Source: an uncultured Porphyromonadaceae bacterium
GTDB lineage: Bacteria; Bacteroidota; Bacteroidia; Bacteroidales; Muribaculaceae
NCBI GenBank assembly: GCA_947175215.1
Contig: CAMWLR010000003.1
Coordinates: forward strand, 1 to 64,000
DNA: 64,000 bases
Direction of reading: 5' to 3'
The position numbers and the translations under genes are program-made. This document shows, piece by piece, positions 352 through 18,892 of the stretch. A model generated the notes under the pieces. That model saw only the letters and a program-made list of their open reading frames with translations, did not search any database and was not told the origin of the DNA. Position 1 is the first letter of the stretch; every line of letters begins with the position of its first letter.

Positions 352-2733
352 CTATCTCAGCGGCTCGTACACCCTCTCGCCGATCTTGGTGGCGAGCTCG
401 GCACAGAATTGTTGCCAACGGCGCTGTTGTGACATCATCTCGAGGATGGCGTCAAGGTCATAATCGGGCTGTTGCTGCATCTGTTGGATTTTTTGTGACA
501 GTTCGTGGAAGAAGCAACGAGCGATATCATATTTGAGTTCGAGCAATGCCCGTGGTATCAATTCGTCGAGGCGATCCTCCTCTGTCTCCACTTTGGTATT
601 GTTCTTGAAATAGATCTTGCTCAGCTGATGCTTGTCAACAACGAGATTTGTGGCTATACGACGTATCGTGTCATCGGGATGTGACAAGAGTTGCCGCTGA
701 AAGAAGTCTTTAGCAAACGTATTGAGCGACAAACGATAACTCTCGTCAACGCGCTCCTTAAGAAGCAGTTCGCGCTGCTGTATCTCCTGTAAAGTCTTTG
801 CCTCGCGGGCGATCTGCTCTATCCCCTCCTTGAGCTGTTTATCACGCCGACGGGCAGCTGTGACAAGATATGCAGCATAATCATCATCCCATTGCGTATC
901 GCGCATCTGCAATACACACTCATAAACTTTAAGCAGGTCGGGGTTCTCAAAAGTCAATCCGTCTTGCTCAAGATCCTCAGCTACATAATCAATAACCTTG
1001 ATCAATGACTCGCTGTCATCAGTACCGTAATCTTCGCCCAGATCAAGCATACCATACTTGATGACGAGCCTCAACAATGAACGCTCTTGCGGGGCGAGAA
1101 TCATGGCACGGTGAGATTGCCGGTCTTTACCAATAAAAACAGCATAGTCACTCTCAGTTATCTCATCTTGCGAGCCATGTGCATCCGGTTTAGAGGATGT
1201 CGGCGCCGTTGATTCACCTTGAGCCGTCTCACTGCCTTGGCCCGAAGGGTCTCCTGCATTTGCCGCCCCCTCTTGCGTTGCCGTGGGGGTCTGCGCTGCC
1301 CCTGCGGCTGACAAGGGATTACTGCCGGCTGCTTCACCGCCATTGCCACCGGGGGGATTGGCGACGCTGTCACGCGCAGCCTGACGGCGAGCTTCATCGG
1401 CCTGCTGCTCGATGCGCTTTGTGCGGGCCACAGCAACCTGCCGGGTGAGCAGAGACTCATCCATAGCGAAACGCTGCGAGCACTCGCGTATATAGACATT
1501 GCGGGTAATCTCATCGGGTATGACCGAGATTGATCTGACTATGTCGGCCACCGCCTTGGCACGGGCGACGGGGTCACCTGCGGTATCCTTGAGCAAAATA
1601 TCGGTCTTGAATCTTATGAAGTCTACCGAATTATCTTCAAGATATTTCTCGACCTCTTCAAGCGTATGTGACTGGGCAAACGAGTCGGGGTCATCCCCCT
1701 CAGGCAGCAGACACACCTTGATATTCAGCCCCTCGGCAAGCAACAGGTCAATTCCTCGCAGGGATGCCTTGATACCCGCGGGGTCTGAGTCATATATCAC
1801 CGTGACATTCTCCGTAAAACGGTGGATCAGCCTAACCTGCCCGTTGGTGAGCGATGTGCCCGACGATGCCACGACATTCTCTATACCACTCTGGCTCATC
1901 GAGATCACATCCATATATCCCTCGACGAGTATGCAGCGGTTTTTCTTGACTATCGATTGTTTGGCCTGATAGAGACCGTATAGCTCGCGGCTCTTTGAGT
2001 ATATCATACTCTCGGGAGAGTTGACATACTTGGCGAGTTTCTTGTCATTTGAGAGGATACGGCCACCAAATGCCACTACTTTACCGGCGATAGTAAAAAC
2101 GGGGTATATCACACGCTCGCGGAAACGGTCGCGCAATTCTCCATTCCCTATGGCGAAACATAGGCCGGTCTTTTCGAGAGCCTCCTTGGTATAACCAGCC
2201 TTGAGGGCGGCAGCCGCCAGATCATCATGTCTGTCAAGCGAAAACCCCAGGTGAAATCTGGCAATGGCGGCATCATTTATGCCACGGTGGCGAAAATAAC
2301 TCAGGCCTACATCACGCCCCTGGTCAGTGTCGCGCAGACGTTCCTCAAAGTGCTTCATCGCAAACTCGTTGAGTGACAGTAACAGCTGTCGCTCACCTTG
2401 CTGTCGTCGCTCCTCATCGGTCAGCTCATGTTCCTTTATCTCGATATGATACTTACGTGCGAGATAACGCAGAGCCTCCCAGTAGGTCATCTGCTCATGC
2501 TCCATGATGAAGTTGACCGGACTACCCCCCTTGCCGCAGCTGAAACATTTGCATATCCCCTTGGCAGGAGATACAGAGAAAGATGGAGTGCGCTCATTAT
2601 GAAACGGGCAAAGGCCGATATAGTTGGCTCCGCGACGCTTAAGGCTCACGAAGTCAGAGACTACCTCGACGATATTAGCCGTATCTATAATTCGCTGTAC
2701 GGTCTCGCGGTCTATGACAGATTTCTTCATCAT
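352..2733 (-). CDS. dnaG: DNA primase DnaG
   Basis: CHC2 zinc finger CPFHNERTPSFSVSPAKGICKCFSCGKGG, TOPRIM region LVEGYMDVISMSQSGIENVVASSGTSLT; start placed at ATGATGAAGAAATC rather than the longer ORF. Confidence 0.95.
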   Translation of the reverse strand: MMKKSVIDRETVQRIIDTANIVEVVSDFVSLKRRGANYIGLCPFHNERTPSFSVSPAKGICKCFSCGKGGSPVNFIMEHEQMTYWEALRYLARKYHIEIKEHELTDEERRQQGERQLLLSLNEFAMKHFEERLRDTDQGRDVGLSYFRHRGINDAAIARFHLGFSLDRHDDLAAAALKAGYTKEALEKTGLCFAIGNGELRDRFRERVIYPVFTIAGKVVAFGGRILSNDKKLAKYVNSPESMIYSKSRELYGLYQAKQSIVKKNRCILVEGYMDVISMSQSGIENVVASSGTSLTNGQVRLIHRFTENVTVIYDSDPAGIKASLRGIDLLLAEGLNIKVCLLPEGDDPDSFAQSHTLEEVEKYLEDNSVDFIRFKTDILLKDTAGDPVARAKAVADIVRSISVIPDEITRNVYIRECSQRFAMDESLLTRQVAVARTKRIEQQADEARRQAARDSVANPPGGNGGEAAGSNPLSAAGAAQTPTATQEGAANAGDPSGQGSETAQGESTAPTSSKPDAHGSQDEITESDYAVFIGKDRQSHRAMILAPQERSLLRLVIKYGMLDLGEDYGTDDSESLIKVIDYVAEDLEQDGLTFENPDLLKVYECVLQMRDTQWDDDYAAYLVTAARRRDKQLKEGIEQIAREAKTLQEIQQRELLLKERVDESYRLSLNTFAKDFFQRQLLSHPDDTIRRIATNLVVDKHQLSKIYFKNNTKVETEEDRLDELIPRALLELKYDIARCFFHELSQKIQQMQQQPDYDLDAILEMMSQQRRWQQFCAELATKIGERVYEPLR

Positions 2734-2914
2734 TGCTAATGCAAAGTTACACTTTTTCCGGCTAATCACCATCCCGATAACTGTACCGTAATGTTAAAAA
2801 TTCACACTAATATTAAACGAGTCGGCCCAAACTGATGTTATAATTATGTGAAAGTAAATCTCTCATCGTGCGAGAGACAACACGTTATCAACTGTTTATA
2901 TTCAGACGCTATCA

Positions 2915-4339
2915 ATGACAACCTCGCTAAAACGACTGATTTTCAGCGCAGCATCAATTATTGTTGCCCTTATGTCGGTGTCAATATCACAAGCCCAACA
3001 ACCACTGTCGGCTGACAGCCTGCCGCAGGCCTGGAGCTATACCTCTGACCGCTTACAGGAGATTCCCGGCGGCAGCAATGACCATTGGTGGAGTCGTTTC
3101 TCAGATCCGACTCTCGATTCTCTTATAGTGCTGGGTATCGAGCGTAACTATGACCTGAAAATCGCTTCTCGTCGTCAGGAGATGGCTCGCGCGGCAATGA
3201 ATCAGGCCCGCGCGACATGGTATCCGACCATAGGACTATCAGCCGGGTGGACAGCAGCGCAGTCATCAGGAGCAAACAACCGAGGGGCAAAGTCGTCAAT
3301 ACCGTCAGAGTCATACTTCAACGCCGGGCTCAACGCCAGTTGGGAGATAGATATCTTTGGTAAAATCGCATCAGGTGTCAAGGCCAAGAAAGCGCAGTAT
3401 AACGCCACACGGGCCGAATATGCCGGCGCAATGGTATCTATGACGGCTCAGATCGCATCGACATATTTCACTCTGCGCAGTCAGCAACGTCAGTTGCAGG
3501 TCGCCAAAGCCCACTGCGAAAGTCAGATGAAGATTGTCAACATCGCCAAAGCCCGCTATGAGGCATCGCTCGCCTCTAAACTCGATGTAGCTCAGGCCTG
3601 GCAAACTTATTACACAACGGCCTCGACCATCCCGATGCTTGTGAGTTCGATACACGCATCAATTAACTCTCTGGGTATATTGATCGGGGAGTTTCCTCCC
3701 GAGGCTGCCCGCATGCTTGCCCAACCCGGTCCGCTCCCTAACTGGAAAATAAATGTAAACACCGGTGTCCCCGCCGACCTGTTGCGACGTCGCCCTGATA
3801 TTGTCGAGGCTGAGATGCAACTGGCTGCTGCGGCTGCCAATCTCGGTGTGGCTAAAAAAGATTTTCTCCCGACCCTGACAATCGAGGGTAGTATCGGCAC
3901 GGCTGCGCGCCGGCTTGACAATCTGTTTGGCAGCGATTCGTTTACCTGGTCGGTTGCCCCTACCCTCTCATGGACTCTCTTCGACGGGTTTGCCCGTAAA
4001 TATAGCGTGGTGTCAGCTCGCGAAGAGATGCAGTCGGCCATCGACAGCTATAATCTGTCGGTGCTCAACGCCGTCGGGGAGACCGAGAGCGCCCTCTCAA
4101 CCTATGATGCTTCGCTCAGACATATAGATCTGACTCAGCAACTGTGCGTGCAAAACCAAGAGGCCCTGCGTCTGGCGATCGAGCGATATAAAGATTCTCT
4201 CTCACCGATGACCGATGTGGTCAACGCTCAGGTCAACGCTCTCGCCGGCGAGACCCAGCTGATTGAGGCACAGGCCTCGGCCCTTACATCCCTTGTCAGC
4301 CTCTATGAGGCTCTCGGCGGAGGTATAGACCCGCAATAA
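2915..4339 (+). CDS. TolC/NodT-type outer membrane efflux protein
   Basis: Signal peptide, OEP repeats (RRPDIVEAEMQLAAAAANLGVAKKDFLPTLTI); first gene of an RND operon. Confidence 0.92.
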   Translation: MTTSLKRLIFSAASIIVALMSVSISQAQQPLSADSLPQAWSYTSDRLQEIPGGSNDHWWSRFSDPTLDSLIVLGIERNYDLKIASRRQEMARAAMNQARATWYPTIGLSAGWTAAQSSGANNRGAKSSIPSESYFNAGLNASWEIDIFGKIASGVKAKKAQYNATRAEYAGAMVSMTAQIASTYFTLRSQQRQLQVAKAHCESQMKIVNIAKARYEASLASKLDVAQAWQTYYTTASTIPMLVSSIHASINSLGILIGEFPPEAARMLAQPGPLPNWKINVNTGVPADLLRRRPDIVEAEMQLAAAAANLGVAKKDFLPTLTIEGSIGTAARRLDNLFGSDSFTWSVAPTLSWTLFDGFARKYSVVSAREEMQSAIDSYNLSVLNAVGETESALSTYDASLRHIDLTQQLCVQNQEALRLAIERYKDSLSPMTDVVNAQVNALAGETQLIEAQASALTSLVSLYEALGGGIDPQ

Positions 4340-4393
4340 CCTGATATTTAAGATAATCAACACTCATATTCATCAGTCAAAACGTATCTTACG

Positions 4394-5512
4394 ATGAAAA
4401 AGAAATATATCCTCCTCGCTCTTTCTTGCGTTTCGTTCTGCTTTCTGGGTATCCTCACCGGCTGTGGTAAAAAAGATGCCAAAACCGTCGAGACCCAACC
4501 GGAAGTGTCAGTCGCACTACCCCTCACCGACTCTATCACTCTCACTCAGACTTACCCCGCTACACTCTCGGCCAGCCAGTCGGCTGATATTGTCGGACTT
4601 GTCAACGGCACCTTGCAGAAGATTCTCTTTGAGGAGGGTGATTACGTCACCGCCGGACAGCCTCTGTTTATCATCGACCCGTCGACCTATCGCGATCAGG
4701 TCAACGAGGCCCAGGCCGCTCTTGAGACCGCCTCGGCAGTATATGAGTACTCGCAACGTCAGAATGAGGCGATGCAGAAAGCTCTCGAGGCTGATGCAGT
4801 GTCACGCCTTGACGTCATACAGGCTGAGAGTAATCTCAAACAGAGCGCCGCATCAATCAAGAGAGCAAAGGCCGAACTCGCTGCCGCCAACACCAAGCTC
4901 GGCTACTGTACTGTCCGCGCCCCCTTCTCGGGTTATATAACCAAGGCGACCGTGAGCGAGGGTGCATACATCTCGGGCGAAAGCGCACCGGTCAAATTAG
5001 CTGCCATCTATGCCAATCAGACCATCTACGCCAACTTCTCAATCAGTACCGATAAGTATATTTTGATCCGAGACACCTCCTCGGGCAAAGATCTCGATCT
5101 CGATCATATACCGGTCTTATTCGGCGACTCAGTCGTCGGGAAATATTACGGTAAGCTCGACTATACCGCCCCCAACGTCAGCACCTCGACCGGAACTGTC
5201 AATCTGAGATTAATAATCGATAACAGCAAGGGAGAACTGCGTGACGGTATGTTTGCCACCGTCAGACTCCCATATACCGTAGAACCGCACGCCTTACTTG
5301 TCAAGGATGCTTCGCTCAGCACCGATCAGCTCGGTAAATATCTATACACCGTCAACGACTCTGACAAAGTCATCTACACCCCGGTAGAAGTAGGCGGACT
5401 GTATCAGGATACGCTCAGAGTCGTCACCAAAGGATTGACCCCCAACGACCGTTATGTGACCACCGCCCTGCTCAAAGTGCGTGACGGCATGAAAGTTAAA
5501 CCGATCAGATAA
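4394..5512 (+). CDS. RND efflux periplasmic adaptor (membrane fusion lipoprotein)
   Basis: Lipobox LTGC, HlyD/AcrA-like biotinyl-lipoyl and alpha-hairpin regions; 14 nt upstream of the RND pump gene. Confidence 0.93.
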   Translation: MKKKYILLALSCVSFCFLGILTGCGKKDAKTVETQPEVSVALPLTDSITLTQTYPATLSASQSADIVGLVNGTLQKILFEEGDYVTAGQPLFIIDPSTYRDQVNEAQAALETASAVYEYSQRQNEAMQKALEADAVSRLDVIQAESNLKQSAASIKRAKAELAAANTKLGYCTVRAPFSGYITKATVSEGAYISGESAPVKLAAIYANQTIYANFSISTDKYILIRDTSSGKDLDLDHIPVLFGDSVVGKYYGKLDYTAPNVSTSTGTVNLRLIIDNSKGELRDGMFATVRLPYTVEPHALLVKDASLSTDQLGKYLYTVNDSDKVIYTPVEVGGLYQDTLRVVTKGLTPNDRYVTTALLKVRDGMKVKPIR

Positions 5513-5526
5513 ATTACACCGCGCCT

Positions 5527-8500
5527 ATGTTCTCGAGATTTTTTATCGACCGTCCGATTTTTGCGACGGTGCTCGCTATAATAATGATTCTTGCGGGTGT
5601 GCTGACCGTCAAAACACTACCTATCGCACAGTATCCCGATATAACCCCTCCGACCGTCATGGTCAACGCAACCTATCCCGGTGCTGATGCCAAGACGGTC
5701 GCCGAGACTGTCGGCGTTCCTATCGAGGAGAGTGTCAACGGTGTCGAGGGTATGATGTATATGAGTTCAAACTCAGGCTCTGACGGCTCATATAATCTAA
5801 CCATCACCTTTCAGAATGGTGTGGACGTAGATGACGCTACCATCAAGGTGCAGAATCTTGTCAATCAGGCCGAACCGCAATTGCCCTCGGCCGTCACACA
5901 GCAGGGTGTCGACGTGATGTCGAAATCATCTAACATCCTGCTGTTCGTCGCCCTGCAAGGTGATGAACGTTATGATGCACTCTATCTCACCAACTATGCC
6001 AAGCTGCATATTGTCGATGCCCTAAGCCGTCTTGATGGTGTGGGAGGTGCAAGCGCGTTTGGCGGAGGAGACTACTCGATGCGCGTCTGGCTCGATCCTG
6101 ATGCCATGATGGCCAGAGGTATCACACCCTCTGACGTCAAGGCCGCCATCGAGGCACAGAATATGGAGGTCTCGGCCGGGTCGGTCGGAGCGCCCCCCGC
6201 CTCGACTATCTCGGCATTCCAGTTCACCCTATCTTCGCCGGGCCGGCTCACCACCGCCGAGCAGTTTGGCAATATCATCCTGCGCACGGGTGAGGATGGC
6301 GCGATCCTCCGTCTCAAAGATGTTGCGAGGGTCGAACTCGGCAGTAACTCTTACTCATCCATGAGCCGCGTATCGGGTAAACCGGCCGGACTGATCGGCG
6401 TTTACCAGCGTCCACAGGCCAATGCCCTCGATGTAGCGCATGAGGTGGAGAAAGAACTCGAGAATCTTGCCCCCTACTTCCCGCCGGGTATCCATTACCG
6501 CGTACTGATGAACACCACCACCTTTATCTCAGCCTCGGTTGACGAGGTGCTGGTCACCTTTGCCGAGACAACACTGATTGTGATGGTCGTCATTCTATTC
6601 TTCTTGCAGAGTTGGCGCGCCGTGATCATACCGATGCTTACCATTCCCGTATCGTTGATCGCCACCTTCGCGGTCATGAAGTTGATGGGGTTCACGCTAA
6701 ACACACTTACGCTGTTTGGCCTCGTGCTGGCCATCGCGATAGTGGTCGACGACGCGATAGTGGTGGTGGAGGATTGTGCCCGACTGGTACAACAAGGCAC
6801 GTTGTCTCCGCGACAGGCTGCCCGTAAGGCGATGGTCGAGCTGCAAGGGCCGATTGTCGGCGAGGTACTCGTGCTGCTGTCGGTATTTATCCCCACCGCT
6901 TTCATCTCCGGTATTACCGGCGAACTATACAAACAATTCGCGTTGACCATCGCCGTCTCGACAGCGTTCTCAGGATTCAATGCCCTCACATTCACCCCCG
7001 CGATGTGTGCCCTCTTCCTGCGCAAGAAATCAGGGCAGACAAATTTCTTCCTGTTCAAGTGGTGGAATACCGCATGGGGTAAGACAGTCAAGGGTTACAC
7101 TGCCGTTATCGGCCGCCTGCTGCAACATCCCTGGGTAGCTATCGGCATATACGGTACACTCTGTTTCCTGGCTTTCTGGGGCTTTGCCAAGTGGCCGACC
7201 AGTTACATCCCCGAGGAGGATATGGGGTATTTCATGGCATCTGTCGAACTCCCCACCGGTGCATCACTCGAGCGTACCGACAAGATGGTTTCGCAAGTAT
7301 CGGATATCATCCGCGAGATGCCCGAGGTAGAGGATGTCATCGAGATGTCAGGATTCTCGTTCATGGGAGGGTCGGGCAGCAACACCGGCTCGATGTTCGT
7401 CACCCTCAAACCCTGGAGCGAACGCAAAAAGAAAGGTGAGTCAGTCTCGGCTGTCATCGACCGCATCAACGAGAGATGCGCAGGATTGCAGGAAGGCATC
7501 GTGTTCGCCATCAATCCCCCTGCCATCCCCGGTCTGGGTAGCACCTCAGGTCTGTCTATGCAGTTGCTTGACATCAACAACCGCGGTGCCGGTCAGATGG
7601 CCGTCGCCCTGCGTGAGATAGAGGAAGCCGCGGCCAAAGATCCCCGCATCGGGTCGATACAGTCACTTTATGAGGGACTTGTGCCACAGTACAGCATACA
7701 TATCCAACGCGACCGCATCGAGATGCTCGGACTTGATCTCAACTCGGTATACTCGACATTGAGCAGTTATCTCGGCGGTTCATACGTCAACGACTTCGTC
7801 GAGTTTGGCAACGTCTATGAGGTGAATATCGGAGCCGAGGACACCGCCCGTGCCAACGTCAACGACATCATGAAACTGTCGGTGCGCAATAGTGCCGGCG
7901 AGATGGTACCCTTCTCATCATTCTCCACCATCAATCCCGTCATGGGTTCATCGACCATCAGCCGATATAACATGTATGAGACTGCGGCTCTCACAGCCAC
8001 CGCTGCCAAAGGAGTCAGCTCATCTGTTGCCATCAAGGCTATGGAGGAGATTGTCAAGAAAGCTACCGGAGATAGCTACGGCTACGCATGGACCGGCGAA
8101 GCCTATCAGGAATCGCAGGCCGGAACAACCGTATCGACCGTACTTCTCTTTGCCATCATCATCACCATCCTTGTACTCGCCGCCCAGTATGAGAGCTGGA
8201 CTGACCCGCTCGCCGTCGTCATCTCGATGCCCACAGCCATCCTCGGCACAGTCTTCGGCTGTATCTGCATGAACCAGTCGATAAGCATATACACTGAGAT
8301 CGGTATCATACTGCTGCTCGGACTGTCGGCCAAGAACGCCATCCTCATCGTCGAGTATGCCATGGATTACCGTAAACAAGGTATGTCTGTACGTCAAGCC
8401 GCCTTTAACGGCGGTATGGTCAGATTCCGCCCCATCATGATGACCGCTCTCGCCTTTGTCTTCGGAGTCATGCCGATGCTCTTCGCGACCGGAGCCGGAG

Positions 8501-15291: not shown

Positions 15292-16893
15292 TCACACCGT
15301 GGGGATTTCATCGGATGGTAGACCGAAGCAGCGGATGATGGCCCGGCGCATCCGGCGGGATGGTTCACTGTCGTGCCTGAGGATAGTAATGATTGCGGCT
15401 ACGTATGCCTCCTTTGAGCCGTTTAGCCCGCACAGGGTCGAGACGTTTGAGTTGGGGAGCATCGACTTCTGGTTATATACCTTGAGTATTGAGGCGTAAT
15501 CCTCATGATTGACATAGTTTGAAAATTCGCGGCATAGTTTTTCGTATAACCCGCGCGGATTCAACTCCTTGGCTAATCCGGCCAGATGATTTTCAAAGTC
15601 GTTGATATTACTGAATTTCCCGTCTACACGCCGCTCCATCAGTCGTTTTATGCGGTGACGGGTATGCAGCATCGCCTGGGCGCGCAGATCGTGGCTAAAC
15701 ATCGATATGATCGACTTCTTGACCGATTTGAAAACCCTGTTCTCGTCACGTCCGTTGTATGTGGCCACACTCCTGACCACCTGCTCGAGCATCAGAATAT
15801 TCTCTATCTCTGCTACATCAGGTACAAATATATTCTTACCCCTGAGATACGCCACCTCACCGTCATCACGGCGATCCCGATCGACGATACCGCGGCTCTC
15901 GAGATTGTGCAGCGACCGCTGATCATTAAAGGCGCGTGTCGACTCTATCACCTTGTCGCAACTACCAAGCGATTTGACCGTAAAGTCGCGGAACACTAAC
16001 GGATATAACTTGGCATCTATCGAGTGCGCAGCATCCCCCTCGATAAACAGCAGAGGTTTGCGTGACCCTATGATAGCCATATAAATCTCATCAGAGATAC
16101 CCGCTCCGCGCGGCAGTATGGTGTAATCCCAACCTTCAGAGGCGGTGTCATACCCTTTTACCCACAGCAGAATGTCACGATTGCGTGTAGCTGTGAATCC
16201 TAAATCGTGGGTAGTATAGATAAACCGACAGTCGGGCCTGAGTGTCTCGATCATCTCCCATGCGCGCTGTTGCAGCGAGGGATGCAGGAATGTCTCGGGC
16301 GCATCGACAAACACTACACCATCTTTTGGCGCATACAAGACCGCACCAAAATAATAGAGCAATGCCTTCTCGCCGTCAGACAGCCTTTTCTGGGCATACC
16401 TGTCATCCTGACCCTCGCGGGCGAACATAAGTCGGCCGCCATCGCGGAGTACCTGATTCCCGGGGAATAGCTCTTGCCACCGGGCTATCACCAGATCAAG
16501 TTTGGTGGCGGGTATAAAGACTGCCTCGCGTCTGCCGGCCATGACCTCAGTCTGAGCCATCTTATATTCAACCAGAGCGCTTATCTCCTCATTGAGCAAC
16601 ATCGCCATCAGACGGTCAAAGGGTGTCGCAGCGGCATTTGTCAGGAATGACGGCGACCTGGCGGCCTCGATATATAATCTGTCGGTAGTGGCCTGAACAT
16701 CGTTGGGCTCACCTGTGGCGTAGATCGCTTTAAGAGCCGACAGACGCAGAGCGTTATCGCCGAGACTATCGGCGAGATAAGAGGTAAACCGTGTTTTTCC
16801 GGCACCGTTGGCACCGATAATGGTCAGATGGCGTGTGCCAGCGGGTAAAGTACGCCGCTCACCTGTCGGATCAGGAGGGAGAAGTATGGCCAT
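15292..16893 (-). CDS. ATPase (OLD/AAA_15/21-like) fused to TOPRIM/DUF4435-like domain
   Basis: Walker A GANGAGKT, ABC-like signature LSDGEKA, Walker B VVFVDAPETFLHP, switch His TTHD; C-terminal TOPRIM-like LLFIEGDAAHSIDAKLYPLVF ... GIVDRDRRD ... VPDVAEIENILM. Confidence 0.85.
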   Translation of the reverse strand: MAILLPPDPTGERRTLPAGTRHLTIIGANGAGKTRFTSYLADSLGDNALRLSALKAIYATGEPNDVQATTDRLYIEAARSPSFLTNAAATPFDRLMAMLLNEEISALVEYKMAQTEVMAGRREAVFIPATKLDLVIARWQELFPGNQVLRDGGRLMFAREGQDDRYAQKRLSDGEKALLYYFGAVLYAPKDGVVFVDAPETFLHPSLQQRAWEMIETLRPDCRFIYTTHDLGFTATRNRDILLWVKGYDTASEGWDYTILPRGAGISDEIYMAIIGSRKPLLFIEGDAAHSIDAKLYPLVFRDFTVKSLGSCDKVIESTRAFNDQRSLHNLESRGIVDRDRRDDGEVAYLRGKNIFVPDVAEIENILMLEQVVRSVATYNGRDENRVFKSVKKSIISMFSHDLRAQAMLHTRHRIKRLMERRVDGKFSNINDFENHLAGLAKELNPRGLYEKLCREFSNYVNHEDYASILKVYNQKSMLPNSNVSTLCGLNGSKEAYVAAIITILRHDSEPSRRMRRAIIRCFGLPSDEIPTV

Positions 16894-16904: not shown

Positions 16905-17801
16905 TTAATCAAGATAACGCTTGGTCAATCCGTGGTAAAGGTCTATACGGCGATCGCGCAGGAATGGCCACCAACGGCGCACCTGCTCGCTGCGTTGCAT
17001 GTCCACCTCGACCACCGCGGTCTCCTCGCGGTCTGTCGGGCCTGCGTATATGATTTCACCCTGCGGACCGGCAACGAAGCTCGACCCCCAGAAAGTGATA
17101 CCGTCAGTTACACCCGAGGGATCGTCCTCATGCCCTACCCTGTTGACGGCTATCACAGGGAGACCGTTGGCAACGGCGTGACCGCGCTGCACCGTGATCC
17201 AGGCATCGCGCTGCCGCTGTTTCTCATCCTCTGTATCACTGTCTTGCCACCCGATAGCCGTAGGATAAATCAACATCGACGCACCTTGCAGGGCCATAAG
17301 ACGGGCAGCCTCGGGATACCACTGATCCCAGCAGACCAGAACGCCGATCTTACCCAATGAAGTCTCAACCGGCCGGATGCCGAGATCACCCGGGGTAAAG
17401 TAAAATTTCTCATAAAACCCGGGGTCATCGGGTATATGCGTCTTGCGGTATCTCCCGGCCTCACTACCATCGGTGTCAAACACGACAGCGGTGTTATGAT
17501 AGAGGCCGGGGGCCCGGCGTTCAAACATAGAGGTGATTATCACCACACCCGCCTCGCGTGCCAGGCGCGAATAAAACTCAGTGGCCTCAGAGTCGAGATC
17601 GACAGCGAGGTCAAAAGTGTCGACATTCTCATCCTGACAGAAATATAGAGAGTCATGCAGCTCCTGGTTGACGATAAGCTGCGCGCCTGAGGCCGCAGCT
17701 GCTGCTATCTCATCGGCCAGACGGCGACGATTCTCTGTGATATCGGCACTCTTGGTCATCTGTATGAGTGCGATATTTATCTTTTTAGGGGTATTCTCCA
17801 T
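16905..17801 (-). CDS. aguB: N-carbamoylputrescine amidase
   Basis: Carbon-nitrogen hydrolase with Glu (NQELHD), Lys (YRKTHIP) and Cys (LVCWDQWYPEAAR) triad; adjacent to agmatine deiminase; start set at MENTPKK to avoid overlap. Confidence 0.93.
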   Translation of the reverse strand: MENTPKKINIALIQMTKSADITENRRRLADEIAAAAASGAQLIVNQELHDSLYFCQDENVDTFDLAVDLDSEATEFYSRLAREAGVVIITSMFERRAPGLYHNTAVVFDTDGSEAGRYRKTHIPDDPGFYEKFYFTPGDLGIRPVETSLGKIGVLVCWDQWYPEAARLMALQGASMLIYPTAIGWQDSDTEDEKQRQRDAWITVQRGHAVANGLPVIAVNRVGHEDDPSGVTDGITFWGSSFVAGPQGEIIYAGPTDREETAVVEVDMQRSEQVRRWWPFLRDRRIDLYHGLTKRYLD

Positions 17802-17824
17802 CGTTAATAATATTCTAATTCTCA

Positions 17825-18892
17825 TCAGATCGCGAGCCAGGTCGAGGGTATCTGCATTGTGGCGCAATGCAACGACCCGTGCTGCCTGATCAGTTCGAGA
17901 CAGTCTACGGTGATAATCTCATGGCCGGGGAAAGCTATCGCCAGCATACGTGCGGCCATATCGTCATTACGGGGCTGACGGTATACCGGCATCACCACCG
18001 CCCGCGGAGTAATGAGGAAGTTGGCGTATGTCGCCGGCAGTCTCTCACCCTCATCATCATACTCGGGCGACGGCAACGGCAATCCGATGAGGTTATAAGG
18101 ATTTCCCTCGGGAGTCACAAACTGTTTGAGTTGCTCCTCCATCCGCTCAAGGTCGGGGGTGTGAGAGTCAGCGGGGTCATAAGACTTTACGTATAATATT
18201 GTGTCATCGGGGGCGAGACGTGCCAGTGTGTCGATATGGCTGTCGGTGTCGTCACCCGCAAGAGCTCCGTGGTCAAGCCATAAGACACGACGCGCGCCGA
18301 GACCTGCAGCCAACTCTTTCTCAACCGCCTCCTTTGTGATGAATCCGTTGCGGTTGATCGAGAGCATACACTCTGAGGTTGTCAATATCGTGCCGCGACC
18401 GTCTGTCTCTATCGACCCACCCTCGAGGACATACCGTTTGCGCACCGAGACGGATGTGACGATACCCTTTGTAGCCACGAGATTGAGAAAAGCGAGGTTA
18501 TCCCTGTCAGAAGGGAATTTCAGACCCCAGCCGTTAAACTTATATGAGACAGCCGATAGCTCATCGGTGTCACCGCTGCTGACGGTAAGGGGGCCATAGT
18601 CACGTGTCCAGGTATCGTTTGTCTGACAGGCAATGATCAGCACTTTGTCAATCTCCCTGACATCAGCCAGTTTCTCCCTGACACGGTCTGGCTCGGGGGT
18701 GGCGATCACAACTTTCTGCCCGGCTTTGAGCAGAGCGACCGTCAGATCCTTGTAACACATGTCTACCTCAGCGAGTCGCTCAGCCCAGTCAGTATCACGG
18801 TGAGGCCACGCGATGAGTGTAGCGTCAAAGCGGACATCCCACTCGGCGAGCATTATCGGCGAGGCTATATCCTGTGGCGTCTTATCTGTCAT
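17825..18892 (-). CDS. aguA: Agmatine deiminase
   Basis: Porphyromonas-type peptidylarginine deiminase/AguA family: TNDTWTRDYGPL, LEGGSIETDGRGTILTT, DSHIDTLARL, GSLHCATMQIP. Confidence 0.94.
   Translation of the reverse strand: MTDKTPQDIASPIMLAEWDVRFDATLIAWPHRDTDWAERLAEVDMCYKDLTVALLKAGQKVVIATPEPDRVREKLADVREIDKVLIIACQTNDTWTRDYGPLTVSSGDTDELSAVSYKFNGWGLKFPSDRDNLAFLNLVATKGIVTSVSVRKRYVLEGGSIETDGRGTILTTSECMLSINRNGFITKEAVEKELAAGLGARRVLWLDHGALAGDDTDSHIDTLARLAPDDTILYVKSYDPADSHTPDLERMEEQLKQFVTPEGNPYNLIGLPLPSPEYDDEGERLPATYANFLITPRAVVMPVYRQPRNDDMAARMLAIAFPGHEIITVDCLELIRQHGSLHCATMQIPSTWLAI

Follow-up and report, generated by a model that had tools for sequence, protein, structure and literature searches.

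A single gene in the window (the whole 64,000-nucleotide stretch of contig CAMWLR010000003.1 that was analysed) encodes an ABC-type ATPase joined to a TOPRIM nuclease domain, and throughout the family Muribaculaceae the catalytic glutamate of its Walker B motif has been lost alongside fully kept TOPRIM residues, a combination that is new and unexpected. Sequence comparison establishes the fused architecture, the core status of the gene, the retention of the nuclease residues and the loss of the catalytic glutamate from an ATPase that still has its ATP-binding residues. The explanation we favour, with moderate confidence, is that the protein is a single-chain, ATP-gated TOPRIM (ribo)nuclease which shares its ancestry with the fused PARIS proteins (AriAB) and is fixed in the chromosome; as part of the same explanation, this fixation would predate the split of several Bacteroidales families. 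The gene may thus have become a resident host enzyme, not a swappable defence gene.

Domain architecture and predicted structure

The preliminary description of this DNA proposed a single 533-aa ATPase-TOPRIM/DUF4435 fusion of the AriAB kind. Its open-reading frame proved real and lies on the minus strand, a detail which that description omitted, with an ATG start and a stop codon inside positions 15292-16893, whilst the plus-strand reading of the same positions is full of stops (Table 1). Pfam recovered both domains, AAA_21 (PF13304) at E=9.5e-12 and 46 bits and DUF4435 (PF14491) over residues 278-479 at E=4.8e-22 and 79 bits (cut-off 27 in each case), and the ATPase region spans ~245 aa. The PADLOC AriAB profile PDLC02982 matched the protein at E=2.6e-92 and 308 bits; the profile match to AriA was weak (E=5e-4). 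Fused AriAB proteins are defined as an AAA_15/AAA_21 ATPase plus DUF4435 within one polypeptide (PMC9122126), and this protein carries AAA_21 and DUF4435 on one chain. It is "fused AriAB-like" at family level, because of the 308-bit PADLOC score and because AriB is its best, albeit weak (E=0.05), PDB match; Pfam, PADLOC and the C-terminal fold match thus all support the fusion as proposed. The gene is present once in its own genome (92% complete), where it is the sole DUF4435 gene found, and its GC content is similar to that of the surrounding DNA (0.50-0.54).

Table 1. Positions in the window of the fusion gene, its motifs and the two genes upstream.
Feature	Residues	Positions	Strand	Basis or remark
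AAA_21 + DUF4435 (fused AriAB-like) protein gene	533 aa	15292..16893	-	ORF, Pfam, PADLOC
Walker A GANGAGKT	27-34	16792..16815	-	Homologue alignment; Lys33 invariant 121/121
ABC signature LSDGEK	171-176	16366..16383	-	Ser172 and Glu175 invariant 121/121
Degenerate Walker B VFVDAPE	194-200	16294..16314	-	Glu198 in 0/95 Muribaculaceae vs 8/8 patchy/plasmid
Ala198 codon, position of the ABC-ATPase catalytic glutamate	198	16300..16302	-	S/N/D/T/A across Muribaculaceae
H-loop TTHD	227-230	16204..16215	-	His229 invariant
DUF4435 / AriB-type TOPRIM nuclease domain	278-479	15457..16062	-	Pfam, AF2 model, PDB match
TOPRIM motif FIEGD	283-287	16033..16047	-	Glu285 invariant 121/121
TOPRIM DxD motif DRDRR	338-342	15868..15882	-	D338 and D340 invariant 121/121
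E[IV]EN	362-365	15799..15810	-	E362, E364 and N365 invariant 121/121
aguB-like carbon-nitrogen hydrolase (N-carbamoylputrescine amidase type)		16905..17867	-	Pfam CN_hydrolase; 11 bp upstream of the fusion gene
aguA-like agmatine deiminase (PAD_porph)		17825..18892	-	First in the aguA-aguB-fusion gene run

An AlphaFold2 model of the whole protein reached a pLDDT of 90 and a pTM of 0.57, a value that leaves the placement of the domains uncertain. A fold search of the PDB with this full-length model returned PtuA, OLD and GajA through the ATPase part, which bears out, for the ATPase half, the suggested resemblance to OLD. The C-terminal 266 residues (268-533) were also modelled (pLDDT 90.8, pTM 0.86), and among 350,542 PDB chains the top match of this model was AriB (8ux9_A) at probability 0.89, a weak match (E=0.05, TM 0.33), the ranks below it having probabilities close to 0.2 (next-best 0.21). 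A profile sequence search of the C-terminus against the PDB gave chance matches only and no AriB, which was found by the fold search alone. The preliminary description would have been refuted by a C-terminus lacking the TOPRIM fold; the predicted model is instead closest to the AriB TOPRIM, at that weak score.

The order of domains, AAA_21 followed by a DUF4435/AriB-type TOPRIM in one protein with all nuclease residues kept, is the same as in the fused AriAB of PARIS (PDLC02982; Rousset et al. 2022, PMC9122126). Split PARIS (PDB 8ux9, 8v45-8v49) places the same two domains on two proteins, AriA and AriB, and AriA, at 464 aa, is longer than the ATPase region here. The ABC ATPase-TOPRIM fusion is also shared with the OLD family (class 1 OLD, GajA of Gabija, YbjD/OldB, Cran1), and class 1 OLD is likewise an isolated single gene; however, the TOPRIM half here is DUF4435/AriB-like, whereas the ATPase half accounts for most of the match to GajA, OLD and PtuA.

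Nuclease residues kept, catalytic glutamate lost

Residue conservation was scored over 121 non-redundant homologues with identity down to 27%. All motifs quoted in the preliminary description were located in the protein (VDRDRRDD at residues 337-344, VPDVAEIEN at 357-365), and they stand far beyond chance, because the Walker-A Lys, the signature Ser and Glu, the H-loop His and the TOPRIM acidic residues are invariant in the 121 homologues and close pairs show a dN/dS of about 0.05-0.13. The catalytic-looking nuclease residues were rightly described as retained: TOPRIM E285, D338, D340, E362, E364 and N365 are without exception in the 121 homologues, as are the Walker-A Lys, the signature Ser and Glu and the H-loop His.

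The key feature is the Walker B motif, correctly called atypical. In ABC ATPases the Glu next to the Walker-B Asp serves as general base, and with Ala at this position the protein departs from the canonical ABC ATPase site expected of the sensor part of PARIS. Among 95 Muribaculaceae sequences residue 198 is S in 57, N in 22, D in 11, T in 3 and A in 2, with motif variants including DSPE, DNPG and DAPE, so that the catalytic Glu of fused AriAB is missing from all 95, whereas all eight patchy, plasmid or distant relatives keep it (DEPE). Sister families are intermediate, with DEPE in f23 and f3, EEPE in f84 and EDPE (once QDPE) in f17, f48 and f88. By analogy with other degenerate ABC sites, stable ATP binding with slow turnover is predicted. 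The loss is compatible with remaining hydrolysis and is no proof of its absence, because Cran1 tolerates Walker-B changes, as some OLD proteins do (E246/E247 to Ala had no effect; PMC12796447), and because GajA, described as ATP-restrained (PMC12796447; PMC13261556), was measured as an active ATPase (PMC10822852).

Distribution, neighbourhood and inheritance

The gene was found in 13 of 14 genomes of the genus (11/11 good ones) and in 341 of 397 genomes of the family (200/222 good ones; 29 of 30 genera), which is Muribaculaceae by its named matches (Paramuribaculum, Duncaniella, Heminiphilus and others). It is nearly always single-copy, and a few copies among the genus and family genomes carry in-frame stops. 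Within the order it is concentrated in a few sister Bacteroidales families, present in 4/4 genomes of f48, 9/9 of f88 and about 39/67 of f84 (for which a Parabacteroides affinity is inferred), where whole subclades are without it, and it is sporadic in the remainder of the phylum. Its absence from some genera or species (e.g. g3, g26 and part of g4) means that it is not universally essential. Of the near-complete family genomes, about 109/118 score strongly on the PADLOC AriAB profile, one of these ~109 (genus g3) through a longer DEPE-type protein. The patchy, mobile or defence-island distribution that is typical of PARIS, though not strictly defining, is not what we found: in contrast to fused AriAB of PARIS, this is a vertically inherited core gene with conserved housekeeping synteny. 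The suggestion that it would behave as a defence gene therefore found no support in the genomic data, and vertical inheritance as a core gene, half of what the preliminary description named as grounds for refutation, was found across the family and several sister families. None of the open-access papers found reports the gene as core in these families; subscription journals and preprints were mostly outside reach.

The linkage of aguA and aguB upstream (Table 1) is retained across the genus wherever the contig extends far enough. Outside the genus, every sampled genome of f23, f48 and f88 has menA directly downstream on the same strand, as do 48 of ~90 Muribaculaceae (f1) loci with room for it, a count in which a few genomes appear twice, making four families in total; menA lies beside the gene in none of the distant homologues. 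A functional link to polyamines (aguAB) or menaquinone (menA) was considered and dropped, because the partner gene varies among lineages. As stated previously, no other defence genes appear to be nearby: a PADLOC scan of 10 neighbours gave no credible defence match, the one weak match (E=1e-5) being a putative coiled-coil protein. At 19 of 111 loci (L135, L063, L104 and 16 other Muribaculaceae) a Sua5/YciO/YrdC-family gene (tRNA t6A-type, Pfam E=3e-43) lies directly upstream on the same strand, usually with a gap of a few bases; the known tRNA targets of AriB have U36-A37-A38 in common, a context bearing t6A. At nine of the 111, including L129, L064 and L065, the directly upstream gene is an LPG_synthase_C gene (phosphatidylglycerol lysyltransferase C-terminal, MprF-type).

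Vertical inheritance and strong purifying selection are both established at the level of sequence. In trees built from 37 genomes, the fusion protein and RpoB yield the same monophyletic families in nearly the same order, and their distances correlate at r=0.78 across the 37 genomes (0/2000 permutations as high) and 0.79 within the family. Divergence relative to RpoB is 9.4x for the fusion gene and 9.2x for menA (16 genomes with adjoining menA), so the gene evolves like an ordinary neighbour, and arms-race acceleration was rejected as its rate equals that of menA. The median dN/dS was 0.12 over 48 pairs, with most close pairs at 0.05-0.13. Recent horizontal acquisition was rejected on family-wide presence, the rpoB comparison and synteny.

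Conjugative plasmids of Campylobacter and Paraburkholderia, and a plasmid of Synechocystis, carry fused homologues with 27-33% identity, some of them in defence-like surroundings. For example, the Campylobacter homologue lies near HicAB and a DNA methyltransferase, whilst the Paraburkholderia homologue adjoins a split ATPase+DUF4435 pair, with EAD/GASH genes; at L177 (Paraburkholderia sabiae plasmid, 1351-5626) the split pair beside fused AriAB places two PARIS forms next to each other. The plasmid-borne fusions tested score 378-582 bits on the AriAB profile, against the lower 308 bits here. Two f84 genomes hold a core copy plus a divergent second copy of ~640 aa (DEPE in L082), which suggests different roles. 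In genus g3, mostly without the core gene, L227 (G043) carries a ~635-aa AriAB fusion of the DEPE type that may be a PARIS gained independently. Phage cargo was rejected, as IMG/VR holds three relatives only: one at 31% identity and two (L171 and L172) in which the gene adjoins bioA, bioF and mnmE in what seems to be host sequence at the edge of a prophage contig. At L172:4986-6557 (IMGVR_UViG_3300006167_000179) the gene sits between small phage-like genes and these host genes, a flank apparently counted as viral. Similarly, a Parabacteroides 'plasmid' match (H1) was set aside, as the presence of uvrA, gadC and tldD makes it look like a mislabelled chromosome contig; the 219-kb Parabacteroides distasonis plasmid record at L174 (NZ_OY725834.1 16766-28301) is chromosome-like, with uvrA, gadC and tldD around the gene.

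Possible roles and competing explanations

If the protein is an ATP-gated nuclease, its ATPase domains would dimerise around ATP with slow or no hydrolysis, the bound ATP may act as a lock or energy sensor restraining the TOPRIM domain, and the nuclease would be freed upon loss of the bound nucleotide or by a binding partner. The substrate would most likely be RNA, and probably tRNA, judging from homology to AriB, here a weak fold match, which is a tRNase that cuts tRNA with two metals (PMC12409363). Tentatively, its job may be intrinsic, either RNA processing or the control of translation in response to stress or nucleotide state, or it may be that of a permanently installed infection response, and tentatively it would not be an exchangeable arms-race module. 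We regard as plausible, though short of probable, a more specific history in which an ancestor common to several gut Bacteroidales families domesticated a PARIS-type AriAB as a resident ATP-restrained host ribonuclease; its ATPase would have been disabled step by step (from DEPE through EDPE/EEPE to D[S/N/A]P[E/G]) and its nuclease frozen, and much gut-metagenome PARIS would be this gene. Profiles for fused PARIS derive from AAA_15/AAA_21+DUF4435 proteins and use a permissive score cut-off, which for the AAA_21 form is 20 (PMC9122126), so the core gene would be called PARIS by construction, and with strong AriAB matches in nearly every Muribaculaceae genome it would be counted as one-gene PARIS. 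Lineage inheritance of a core gene is a likely contributor to the PARIS reported in gut metagenomes and offers a simpler account of at least some of it. The family also offers a natural experiment, a fused sensor-nuclease in which the nuclease is kept and the ATP-hydrolysis residue lost, through which the role of ATP in AriAB/OLD enzymes can be tested directly. Cran1, an OLD protein that is essential and does not serve defence (PMC12796447), and YbjD are precedents for such proteins as resident chromosomal genes, and alongside Cran1 this may be an instance of an ATPase-nuclease of the defence type that has become fixed in its hosts' genomes.

Vertically inherited genes can still be defensive, and a doubtful but serious alternative is a working PARIS-type abortive-infection system passed down vertically, in which the ATPase restrains the TOPRIM until a protein of the phage, for instance a DNA mimic, sets off tRNA cleavage. 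The fused AriAB architecture and PADLOC score, the AriB-like predicted fold with intact nuclease residues and the homologues in mobile or defence-like contexts (Campylobacter, Paraburkholderia plasmids) would all fit such a system; against it weigh the core status, the mostly single copy, a clock-like inheritance that keeps pace with menA, the strong purifying selection, the absence of defence neighbours in the window (PADLOC, 10 neighbours) and a Walker-B Glu that is lost family-wide yet kept by mobile relatives. An OLD-like (class 1) DNA nuclease for DNA repair or chromosome maintenance, not an RNase, is unlikely: whilst the full-length fold search gives PtuA, OLD and GajA, and Cran1, an OLD relative that nicks DNA, has a role in its host (PMC12796447), AriB ranks first for the isolated C-terminal domain (next-best probability 0.21), and this domain carries DUF4435. 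An ordinary mobile PARIS gene recently gained by the present genome, as the preliminary description implied, is very improbable: the AriAB label from annotation tools speaks for it, but family-wide presence, tree congruence, synteny and a GC content like that of the surroundings contradict it. Least credible of all is a decaying remnant without function, which would suit the Walker-B degeneration and the few copies with in-frame stops and is contradicted by the low dN/dS of close pairs and by nuclease residues that are 100% kept in 121 sequences.
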